Positions 1 to 37,070 of a DNA stretch of 37,070 bases are shown piece by piece. The notes beneath the pieces are model-generated. The model was given only the letters and a program-made list of their open reading frames with translations, was not told where the DNA came from and searched no databases. Position 1 is the first letter of the stretch. Each line of letters begins with the position of its first letter. The DNA is from Acidobacteriota bacterium (GTDB lineage Bacteria > Acidobacteriota > UBA4820 > DSQY01), in contig JAJYCJ010000022.1 in NCBI GenBank assembly GCA_021778515.1, forward strand, positions 1 to 37,070, in the 5' to 3' direction. The translations under genes were made by a program, and so were the position numbers.

Positions 1-383
1 GCGCTCACGAGGTCGCCCCCCGTCGCCGCCGCGCCGCCGAAGGTCACCGTGGCCCCCGACGCGAAGTTGGCCCCCGAGATCGTCACCGGCGTGCCTCCCG
101 CCGTGCCGCCCGAGGAGGGAGTGACTCCCGAAATGGACGGCGGGGGGTTGGAGGCGATGTAGGAGTACCCCGAGGCGAGGGTGGCCGACTGGCTGTCCGG
201 ATTCGTCACCACCACATCCACCGCCCCGGCCGCGTAGGGCGGCGTCAAACACGTCAGGCTCGATGCGCTCACGAGCGAGACCCCCGTCGCCGCCGCGCCG
301 CCGAAGGTCACCGTGGCCCCGGCCACGAAGTTGGCCCCCGAGATCGTCACCGGCGTGCCTCCCGCCGTGCCGCCCGAGGAGGG
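1..383. repeat. 88-codon direct repeat within the IPT/TIG gene
   Basis: Bases 1-119 and 265-383 are nearly identical at a spacing of 264 bp, exactly 88 codons. The copies differ mainly at the short stretches after the first 12 bases and around 56-66 of the unit. Each copy encodes the conserved half of one IPT/TIG domain. Nucleotide identity well above what protein conservation requires points to recent internal duplication or gene conversion. Confidence 0.8.
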
Positions 384-785
384 CTGAACCTGGGACAACG
401 AGGGAGGCGGCAGGGAGCCGGTATAGGTGAAGCCTCCGGGGAGGGTGCCCGCCGTGGCGTCGGGATTGGTGACGGTCACGGACACCGTCCCGGCGGCATG
501 AGGCCCCGTGGTCGCCTGGATGAGCGTCGCCGAGGCGACCACCACGCCGGTGGCAGCCGCCCCTCCCAGGCTGACCGTGGCGCCGCTCTCGAAGCCCGTC
601 CCGCCTATGCTGACGATCGTGCCGCCCGAGCTGGGACCCGAGTTGGGAGCGATGGAGGTCACCGTCACGGAGGGGGCGTACGGGCTGGGACCCGAGCCCG
701 GCGTGGCCCCTGAAGGTGGGGCCCAGACCAGCCCGGCGAGCGCAAGCAAAGCCAAAGCGGGCACTCTCTTCATTTTGCTTCCCAT
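1..785 (-). CDS. secreted IPT/TIG-repeat protein, 5' part (runs off the left edge)
   Basis: This frame stays open from an ATG at 785 to position 1, so only the N-terminal 261 residues are present. A signal peptide is visible (MGSKMKRVPALALLALAGLV, then cleavage near PSGA). At least three Ig-like IPT/TIG domains follow, each about 88 residues, with the recurrent pattern P-SSGGT-GGTPVTISGANF-GATVTFGGAAATG and a closing VTVTNPD or VVVTNPD strand. Such domains build extracellular adhesin-like or carbohydrate-binding stalks, so the protein is probably exported. The start is supported by AAGGAGG about 9 bases upstream; a second in-frame ATG lies at 773. The gene begins 73 bp after the upstream permease stop. 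Total length and any C-terminal catalytic or anchoring domain cannot be seen. The domain call is secure; the function is not known. Confidence 0.8.
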   Translation of the reverse strand, partial: MGSKMKRVPALALLALAGLVWAPPSGATPGSGPSPYAPSVTVTSIAPNSGPSSGGTIVSIGGTGFESGATVSLGGAAATGVVVASATLIQATTGPHAAGTVSVTVTNPDATAGTLPGGFTYTGSLPPPSLSQVQPSSGGTAGGTPVTISGANFVAGATVTFGGAAATGVSLVSASSLTCLTPPYAAGAVDVVVTNPDSQSATLASGYSYIASNPPPSISGVTPSSGGTAGGTPVTISGANFASGATVTFGGAAATGGDLVS

Positions 786-33679: not shown

Positions 33680-34306
33680 GTGCGGACCATAGGAACCCAG
33701 GGCGAGGGCTGGATCGCGGAGGCCTGGAAACACCTGGAGGCGGGCGGTGTGCTGGCCCTTCCCACGGAAACGGTCTACGGCCTGGCCGCCTGTGTGAACG
33801 ATCCTGCGGGTGCGGACCAGATCTTCGAACTCAAGGGCAGGCCGCAGGAAAAGCTCCTCCCCCTCCAGATGGACAGCCTGGCCAGGGTCCGAGCCTGGGG
33901 ATTCTCCCTTTCCCCGGGGGCCGAGCGGTTGGCCCTCGCCTTCTGGCCCGGCCCGCTCACCCTCGTGCTCTCCCGGCCGCCCAGGTGCCCGCCCTGGTTC
34001 GCTCCCGGAGGCACCACGCTGGCCGTGAGGGTCCCGGACCATCCGGTGGCCCTGCGGTTGCTCGGCCGGGCCGAGGCACCCCTGGCGGTGACTAGCGCCA
34101 ACCTGAGCGGAGAGCCGCCCTGTCTCGATGCGGAGGCGGTGGCTCGCGCCTTTCCGGGGGCTCCTCTCCTCGTGCTGGACGGTGGGAGGGCGCCGGGAGG
34201 TTTGCCCTCGACGGTGGTCGCGGCGACCGGCGAGGAACCGGTGGTCCTCCGGGAGGGACCCATCGGCTCCGCGCGCATCCGGGAGGCGTGGCGTGGCGGT
34301 CCATGA
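33680..34306 (+). CDS. tsaC: L-threonylcarbamoyladenylate synthase (Sua5/YrdC/TsaC family)
   Basis: A 208-residue YrdC-fold enzyme for the first step of tRNA t6A37 synthesis. It shows GGVLALPTETVYGLAACV (about residues 22-39), ELKGRPQEKLLPLQM, the FWPGPLTLVL block, TTLAVRVPDHPVA and LAVTSANLSGEPP (about 134-146). It lacks the Sua5 C-terminal extension. Start GTG 33680 follows AGAGGT. It lies 105 bp after purE and overlaps the sirtuin by 14 bp. Confidence 0.9.
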   Translation: MRTIGTQGEGWIAEAWKHLEAGGVLALPTETVYGLAACVNDPAGADQIFELKGRPQEKLLPLQMDSLARVRAWGFSLSPGAERLALAFWPGPLTLVLSRPPRCPPWFAPGGTTLAVRVPDHPVALRLLGRAEAPLAVTSANLSGEPPCLDAEAVARAFPGAPLLVLDGGRAPGGLPSTVVAATGEEPVVLREGPIGSARIREAWRGGP

Positions 34307-35021
34307 GGGGAGACGGCTGGTCGTCCTGACCGGCGCCGGGATCTCAGCCGAGAGCGGGCTTGGGACGTTTCGGGGAACGGGCGGCCTCTGGGAAAACGAG
34401 CCCGTGCAGGCCGTGGCCACCCCCCAGGCTTTCGCGAAGGATCCCCTGAAGGTGTGGCGCTTCTACGAGGCGCGTCGGCACCAGGCCGCGCGAGCCGAAC
34501 CCAATGCCGCCCATCGGGCGCTGGCGGAGCTAGGCCGGTGCCTCGGCCCCCGGCTCACCCTCATCACCCAGAACGTGGACGGCCTGCACCAGGCCGCGGG
34601 GAGCCAGCAGGTACTGGAGCTTCACGGAAGCCTCTGGCGCCTGCGCTGCACCGATTGCGGCGGGGAGGCCGAGGACCGGACCGTGCCTCTTCCCGTTCTG
34701 CCTCCCCGCTGCGGATTGTGCGGCGCCCTGCTGCGCCCATGCGTGGTCTGGTTCGGCGAATTTCTTCCTGAGAAGGTCCTGGCGAAGGCCGTGGAGGCCG
34801 CCCGGGACTGCGCCCTTTTCCTGGTCGTGGGAACCTCGGCGGTGGTCGAGCCCGCCGCGAGCCTGGCGAGGGTGGCCGAGTCCCGCGGCGCCGCACTCTG
34901 GGAGGTCAACCCCGAGACCACCCCCCTCTCCCAGCTCTGCCAGAGGTCGTGGAGGCTTCCGGCCGGGGAGGCGATGGACGAGGTCGTGGAGGAGGCCTCT
35001 CGCCTGCTGGAAGACCCGTGA
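34293..35021 (+). CDS. cobB: NAD-dependent protein deacylase (CobB/sirtuin)
   Basis: A 242-residue sirtuin. NAD-binding [15 protein letters not shown] (about residues 14-28), [13 protein letters not shown] with the substrate site, and catalytic ELHGS are intact. A zinc tetrad is formed by CTDC and CGLC. The Y-x-x-R motif in FYEARRHQ matches sirtuins that also remove succinyl and malonyl groups (E. coli CobB, SIRT5). GTG 34293 has GGGAGG 6 nt upstream, inside the tsaC gene end. A possible hairpin (GCCCAG 35028-35033 with CTGGGC 35041-35046) follows the stop. Confidence 0.93.
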
Positions 35022-35164: not shown

Positions 35165-36679
35165 ATGGCCAAGAAACAGACGATCTATAAGAATTACATC
35201 AACGGGGAGTGGGTGGCCTCGGCCACCCGGAAGACCTTCGCCAACGTCAACCCCGCCGATACCGACGATGTCGTCGGGCACTTTCAGGACAGCGACGAAC
35301 GCGACGTGAACGCCGCGGTGGCGGCCGCCAAAGCGGCCTTCCAGCGGTGGCGCCTGGTGCCCGCGCCCAAGCGCGCCGAACTGGTTATGAAACTCGGCCT
35401 CTGGCTCATGGAGAACAAGGAGCGGTTGGCCCATGACGCCACCCGGGAAATGGGAAAGATCCTCACCGAGACCCGCGGCGACGTGCAGGAGGGCATCGAC
35501 ATGGCCCTCTTCATGGCGGGCGAGGGGCGCCGCATGTACGGCGAGACCACGCCGAGCGAGCTTCCCAACAAGTTCGCCATGGCGGTCCGCCAGCCTATCG
35601 GCGTCTGCGCCCTCATCACGCCCTGGAATTTCCCCATGGCCATCCCCACGTGGAAGATGATGCCGGCGCTGGTGTGTGGCAATACGGTCGTCATCAAGCC
35701 CGCCACCCTCACGCCGCTGACCGTCTGGAACCTCGTCAAGGGCGCCGAGGAGGTGGGCTTTCCCAAGGGCGTGGTCAACTACGTGACCGGCTCCGGACGC
35801 CGGGTGGGCAACCCCCTCTGCGAGCACCCCGACGTGGCTCTCGTCTCCTTCACGGGCTCCACCGACGTGGGGCGCCAGATCAACCTCGCCTGCGCCAAGG
35901 ACTTCAAGCGCGTGGGCCTGGAGATGGGCGGGAAGAACGCCGTCATCGTCATGGACGACGCCGACCTGGACCTGGCCGTGGACGGGGTGCTCTGGGGCGC
36001 CTTCGGCACCACCGGACAGCGCTGCACGGCCACGAGCCGCTGCCTGGTTCAGAAGGGGATCTACAAGAGGTTCCTCGACGCGCTGGTCAGGCGCGCCAAG
36101 GCCCTCAAGATCGGCAACGGCCTGGACGAGAGCGTGGAGATGGGCCCGGCGGTGGACGAGAGCCAGCTCAAAACCGATCTGGAGTACATTGCCACCGGAA
36201 AGAAGGAGGGCGCCAAGCTCCTGTGCGGAGGGAAGCGGCTCACCGGCAAGACATACGCCAAGGGCTTCTTCCTGGAGCCGACCATCTTCGCCGATGTGAA
36301 GCCGTCCATGCGCATCTTCAAGGAGGAGATCTTTGGTCCGGTCCTCTCGGTGGTGCCCTTCAAGACCTTCGAGGAGGGCATCGCGCTTCAGAACGACTGC
36401 GCCTACGGGCTCTCGGGCTCCATCTACACTCAGGACGTGAACAAGGCCTTCGCGGCCATGCGCGATGTACACACCGGCCTTTTCTACGTCAACGCCCCCA
36501 CCATCGGCGCCGAGAACCACCTGCCCTTTGGCGGCGTGAAGCAGACCGGGAACGGCCACCGAGAAGGCGGTAAGGAGGCCCTGGACCTCTTCTCCGAATG
36601 GAAGGCCGTCTACGTGGACTTTTCCGGAAGCCTCCAGCGCGCCCAGATCGACACGGACGCCATCGTAAAAGTGGAGTAG
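35165..36679 (+). CDS. NAD(P)-dependent aldehyde dehydrogenase
   Basis: A 504-residue ALDH-superfamily enzyme. The proton-relay region reads [31 protein letters not shown] (about residues 155-185), the Rossmann turn is FTGSTDVGR, the general-base Glu is in [12 protein letters not shown] (about 260) and the nucleophile Cys is in [12 protein letters not shown] (about 295). It ends with [15 protein letters not shown]. It resembles alpha-ketoglutaric semialdehyde or aminoadipate semialdehyde dehydrogenases, but substrate cannot be fixed. ATG 35165 has GAGGAGG upstream. Transcribed alone, from its own promoter to a good terminator. Confidence 0.93.
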
Positions 36680-36784: not shown

Positions 36785-36812
36785 GGGCCCAGCGGAAACG
36801 CGGGCCCTTTTT
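36785..36812 (+). terminator. intrinsic terminator after the aldehyde dehydrogenase
   Basis: GGGCCC (36785-36790) and GCG pair with CGC and GGGCCC (36799-36807), with a single A bulge at 36791 and a GAAA tetraloop, followed by TTTTT. A second inverted repeat (GGAACCGG 36705-36712, CCGGTTCC 36734-36741) lies closer to the stop. Confidence 0.85.
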
Positions 36813-36886
36813 CTCGATTTCGAAACCCCCATTGCGTCGGGACACGGCGCGGCGACCGGCCGGCGTCAGTCTGTTACTTTTTGCCG

Positions 36887-36907
36887 GGTATTGCATCTTG
36901 CAATACC
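36887..36907. other. 9-bp perfect hairpin preceding the tandem element
   Basis: GGTATTGCA (36887-36895) and TGCAATACC (36899-36907) pair around TCT. Outer CCG/CGG bases can extend the stem past one unpaired T. The last base is shared with the first tandem unit, so hairpin and unit stem abut. There is no T-tract. This AT-containing stem stands out in the GC-rich surroundings. Confidence 0.6.
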
Positions 36908-37052
36908 TCGGGGGCCCGGTTACCGGGAAAGGAGGCTTGCCAAAGGACCCGCCCCGAAGTGGACCTGTACCGCGACGATCTGAGAACGGTCGGTTGAGCC
37001 GGACTCGGGGGCCCGGTTACCGGAAAGGAGGCTTGCCAAAGGACCCGCCCCG
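36907..37052. repeat. two tandem 50-bp units able to form similar stem-loops
   Basis: Units at 36907-36956 and 37004-37052 differ only by one G in a run (CCGGGAAA versus CCGGAAA). Each holds CCGG-TTA-CCGG, two AAAGGA boxes separated by GGCTTGCC, and ends CCCGCCCCG. In each unit CTCGGGG at the 5' end pairs with CCCCG, a bulged base and AG at the 3' end; in unit 2 the stem gains GA/TC from non-repeated flank. The 47 bp between units are unrelated. No known riboswitch or repeat family is recognised. Nothing else is visible in 36813-37070, and the element may continue past the window edge. Confidence 0.55.
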
Positions 37053-37070
37053 CAGTCGTTACCCAGTACA

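Follow-up and report, generated by a model that had tools for sequence, protein, structure and literature searches.

A candidate tandem leader RNA upstream of secreted multihaem cytochrome genes in one family of Acidobacteriota

The DNA analysed here, referred to as the window, is a stretch of 37,070 nucleotides that makes up the whole contig C40 of a 3.34-Mb Acidobacteriota draft genome, and a tandem element of two short units runs into its right end. Upstream of the element, and outside it, lies a plus-strand gene for an aldehyde dehydrogenase of 504 aa (35165..36679; Pfam PF00171, E 5e-178), itself preceded by a gene for a Sir2-family protein (34128-35021). A terminator-like hairpin 3′ of the aldehyde dehydrogenase gene, GGGCCCAGCGGAAACGCGGGCCC followed by TTTTT (36785..36812, plus strand), was read from the sequence and is visible in the weak Rfam P36 alignment; it was not reported by a simple terminator scan. 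A repeat at the left contig end (window 1-530) occurs twice, at a distance of about 264 bp; the copies are nearly identical over the first ~115 bases and agree at 159 of the first 200 aligned positions, and they probably represent repeated domains of a gene truncated there.

Just before the first unit, the alignment of leaders reveals a promoter-like stretch, TGTTAC-N14-TG-CATCTT (36872..36899, plus strand), which recurs as TGTTAC-N14-TG-YATCT with a constant 16-nt spacing in five genomes (G000, the window genome, and G001, G002, G005, and G006). Since it does not match the sigma-70 consensus, calling it a promoter is tentative, and it might be a non-canonical promoter or an activator site. 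The promoter-like stretch is overlapped by a perfect 9-bp hairpin, GGTATTGCA-TCT-TGCAATACC (36887..36907, plus strand), which the earlier note took as the beginning of the element. The hairpin does exist, but it is not conserved and, being absent in G001 of the same genus, was rejected as a part of the structure; about 1.2 hairpins of this kind are expected per shuffled window.

The two units, on the plus strand at 36907..36960 and 37004..37056, are nearly identical over 54 and 53 aligned nucleotides, with one 1-nt indel and one substitution, and stand 97 nt apart from start to start. Both have the same architecture, in which each unit would form a bulged stem-loop. An outer stem P1, made of CGGGG/CCCCG plus one neighbouring pair, would be followed by a pyrimidine loop and then by a stem of GGU-WA-CC with GG-ACC (GGU-[UA bulge]-CC in unit 1), in which two bases bulge out below an apical part that varies and that contains AAAGGAGG in unit 1. 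As had been noticed earlier from the window alone, the outer stem of each unit closes with a single bulged base (A in unit 1, C in unit 2), and in unit 2 it is extended by the flanking GAC/GUC; in other genomes, too, some second units show this extension. The 3′ strand of unit 1, GGACCCGCCCCGAAGU, is complementary to the Shine-Dalgarno region of the gene downstream. The spacer between the units (36961..37003, plus strand) is 93% identical in G001 and is not conserved in other genera. Units of the first type share a loop that contains GGAGG, which in most of them is AAAGGAGG; this sequence or a close variant (36928-36935 and 37024-37031 in the window) in itself resembles a strong Shine-Dalgarno sequence, and neither ATG nor GTG lies at a distance that would allow its use; it may be a standby site for ribosomes or offer another partner for pairing.

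The stretch leading to the start of the downstream gene begins at 37057..37070 on the plus strand, and its remainder was found on contig C176, whose first 127 bp repeat the end of the window. An overlap of this kind is typical of assembly graphs, so C176 most likely continues C40, and the join is supported by G001, where the aldehyde dehydrogenase gene, both units, and the cytochrome gene follow each other in the same order on one contig, the aldehyde dehydrogenase gene thus being syntenic. On C176, a Shine-Dalgarno sequence AAGGAG (144-149) precedes an ATG at 156, 42 nt past unit 2, which opens a gene (L003, 156-1424) for a protein of 422 aa with an N-terminal hydrophobic stretch, many CxxCH motifs, and Pfam domains of the Cytochrome_C7 and cytochrome c3 types. 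The earlier supposition that the element sits where the leader of a downstream gene would be is thereby supported: a gene for a secreted multihaem c-type cytochrome follows.

In the searches made, the unit was found in seven genomes of four genera, all from one Acidobacteriota family, and nowhere else. Six of the seven carry two units; the seventh, G007, has one clear unit and an apparent decayed first unit, the coverage of this MAG being low (1.35). The remnant (GGCCCTTTTGCGAAAGGAGGC...) lies at about 1315-1375 of L014, before the intact unit. Six of the seven leaders (G000, G001, G002, G005, G006, and G007) precede orthologues of the window cytochrome; such orthologues were sought in 149 relatives, among which the unit does not stand before the more distant homologues or paralogues. 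A pattern scan of an 84,980-genome collection returned only five records, all of them Acidobacteria MAGs (WY4.bin4, WY3.bin59, DBS2-1.bin89, 2016_B02_sed_C_26, and BP8.bin17), and a scan of IMG/VR gave no match. When 396 genomes of the phylum were searched with a covariance model, one more carrier emerged, G004, from another genus of the same family, in which both units precede a different multihaem cytochrome of 782 residues, with a Cytochrome_cB domain and two Ig-like repeats recognized by eye, that matches the window cytochrome only around the CxxCH haem motifs. The element thus appears to follow the function rather than one particular gene, and, in the genomes searched, it goes with secreted multihaem cytochromes of a single family. 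Weak matches of the model in G310, G389, and G173 (E 0.008-0.04), where neither a tandem partner nor a cytochrome context was seen, were read as chance.

G000 and G001 share 89-95% identity in the units and the leader, against 38% in the intergenic DNA that precedes the leader. Between genera, the leaders are mostly 50-61% identical and the unit cores nearly invariant, with GGTWACC, GGACCCGCCC, and the outer stem hardly varying. In the set of nine units (A2), two P1 pairs change on both sides (U-A/C-G and G-C/G-U/A-U), and the covariation score of 0.120 was reached by 2 of 500 shuffles; in a set of eleven (A3), which includes G004 and a longer stem, the score was not above shuffles (99 of 500). 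As the sample comprises 11 distinct units and most pairs never vary, the covariation can be called modest. The apical parts of the second units in G005, G006, and G007 are unrelated in sequence to the first-type loop and are predicted to form a stem of their own, and these units fold alone to the same shape regardless. Folded as a free-standing RNA, the 184-nt region does not exceed its shuffles in stability (z +0.6), nor do single units (z between −1.5 and +1.2), so stability by itself gives the structure no support, and the case rests on comparison. Of the earlier proposal that structure is being kept, what stands is a tandem, probably structured leader element that is conserved across genera, with some compensatory pairs. 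It is likely, judging from these alignments, that the units form an RNA structure.

Flanking the Shine-Dalgarno sequence is CUUURGG...GUCC, to which the 3′ strand of the unit, GGAC...CCYGAAG, is complementary. In comparison with start regions that had been dinucleotide-shuffled, this complementarity gave p values of 0.002 in G000, 0.001 in G001, 0.004 in G007, 0.018 in G005, and 0.001 in G002, all somewhat optimistic because the test was devised after seeing G005. It is present, therefore, in five genomes of three lineages, and is absent in the two other lineages, G006 and G004 (p 0.38 and 0.34). The units mostly pair best with the start regions of their own genus, unit 1 being the better partner in g1 and unit 2 in g2, and in G005 and G002 eleven bases pair gap-free with the start region, reaching the start codon. 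Two compensatory changes are seen in this pairing, C-G to U-A and U-A to A-U, in pair-change counts that were also reached by 64 of 500 shuffles. A wider test of the whole unit against the start region fell below 0.05 in G000, G001, and G002 and was not significant in G007, G005, G006, and G004. In G006, the unit 2 apical TCTCTTC (L043 1415-1466, minus strand) has its complement in GAAGAGA, immediately downstream of the start codon, which would be another way of masking the start than in the other lineages; this pairing had no significance when tested against shuffles. In its minimum-energy fold, the leader adopts other pairings, 3-18 kcal/mol more favourable than a fold in which unit 2 is formed. 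When unit 2 is forced to fold, the Shine-Dalgarno sequence becomes more accessible in G005, G002, and G007, and slightly so in G006, with no gain in G000, G001, and G004.

The complementarity to the Shine-Dalgarno region in five genomes, together with the two compensatory changes, suggests a translational switch. The tandem units would act in cis as a leader RNA within the 5′ untranslated region of multihaem c-type cytochrome mRNAs, transcription presumably beginning just upstream of them. When a unit is folded, perhaps stabilised by a small molecule or another factor, its 3′ strand would be taken up within that unit, leaving the ribosome binding site free; when it is not, GGAC...CCYGAAG would pair with CUUURGG...GUCC around the Shine-Dalgarno sequence and mask the start. 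In its simplest reading, the switch would be off unless the unit is folded, this direction being our inference. That a conserved regulatory element exists here seems nearly certain, and there is good reason to think that it acts at the RNA level; for the specific translational switch, and for a tandem cis-acting leader RNA that controls multihaem cytochromes through such fold-dependent switching, the chances look even.

Two explanations hardly deserve credence. The window stops at a contig end that shares 127 bp with another contig, as might be expected of an assembly artefact or of a non-functional tandem duplication in this one genome; the homologues dismiss both, as independent genomes carry the two units on single contigs with flanking genes, and the unit cores are conserved between genera. 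The other is a coding repeat, in which the units would belong to a leader peptide or to an extended N-terminal reading frame. The TTG frame that was noticed earlier is indeed open in the window through both units and into the cytochrome, but it is not conserved: unit 2 of G001 has an insertion of 1 nt that changes the frame, with a stop at −66; G005, G002, G006, and G004 have stops in the stretch from the units to the ATG; and in G007 the single unit is open, but in another phase. With the frame lost in five of the seven leaders, a conserved coding repeat is ruled out, and the signal peptide and the Shine-Dalgarno sequence belong to the downstream ATG.

Regulatory alternatives have to be taken more seriously, even if both look improbable. 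The units may be RNA binding sites for a regulatory protein or a base-pairing small RNA that controls cytochrome translation, and not self-sufficient aptamers; the small conserved core with GGA and GGWWACC motifs in two copies, the strong sequence conservation rather than covariation, and the closeness of the units to the Shine-Dalgarno sequence would all suit such sites. This reading is nevertheless considered unlikely, since no candidate protein was found and the GGA of second units lies in a stem. The best-known GGA-binding regulator is CsrA, and its gene was found in none of the nine family genomes, so that control by CsrA is unlikely and a leader bound by CsrA/RsmA was rejected. Quite improbable, too, is that the units are double-stranded DNA operators, that is, tandem, partly palindromic sites for a transcription factor around GGTWACC within CGGGG...CCCCG arms. 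GGTTACC and GGTAACC are palindromic around the central W, the arms are an inverted repeat, and the sites lie just downstream of the promoter-like stretch; however, one arm pair is G-T in the second units of G007 and G004, which keeps the RNA pair and breaks the DNA palindrome, and the unit spacing varies (97, 93, 92, and 87) and is not fixed to the helix turn. The complementarity of the 3′ strand to the Shine-Dalgarno region also speaks against operators, as do apical parts replaced by other sequences that still fold.

The preferred reading, a leader RNA, invites comparison with known riboswitches. The earlier note likened the units to tandem riboswitch aptamers or a structured leader; a leader element upstream of a gene is indeed what was found, and a riboswitch is plausible, but no known family matches, as Rfam searches at the gathering score and at E up to 10 gave nothing at the units. 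Weak Rfam sRNA matches fall on the upstream terminator, and no description of this motif was found in the literature. In Geobacter, GEMM-I/GEMM-Ib riboswitches, sometimes in tandem, are located upstream of extracellular and multihaem cytochrome genes (PMC6456294), and extracellular electron transfer genes are known to be under GEMM-Ib control there. The likeness of this class (c-di-GMP-I, cGAMP; RF01051) to the present element is one of shared context only, namely the position before secreted multihaem cytochromes and the occasional tandem; the units here are shorter, have another conserved core, and match it neither in sequence nor in structure at E up to 10. Membership was rejected, with no RF01051 match at the element or in the nine family genomes.

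The NAD+-I riboswitch (nadA motif, RF03013), studied in Acidobacterium species, consists of two nearly identical tandem bulged stem-loops and is thought to control translation, with the ribosome binding site in stem P1′ of domain II (PMC10702441). The two tandem units, with their predicted bulged stems, would resemble it in form, but it governs nadA, for which it is an ‘off’ switch, whereas the gene downstream here encodes a multihaem cytochrome and the proposed switch would be ‘on’ when folded. RF03013 has no match in the element and none above the cut-off in any family genome, and neither nadA nor another NAD biosynthesis gene lies downstream, so membership in this class was rejected as well. 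The aptamers of the glycine riboswitch are longer than the units here and multi-stemmed. In that riboswitch, too, a single gene is preceded by two homologous aptamers in tandem (PMC10702441), but the present units have no Rfam match.

The element is thus plausibly a new, previously undescribed candidate for a riboswitch-like leader RNA. It is a tentative thought, and one somewhat against the odds, that it represents a new tandem riboswitch class of one Acidobacteriota family that couples a redox-related or second-messenger ligand to multihaem cytochrome translation, as an independent counterpart of GEMM-Ib in Geobacter. If a different RNA element plays a comparable part in another phylum, multihaem cytochromes would have come under RNA control more than once, and its ligand would identify a respiratory signal of uncultured Acidobacteriota.
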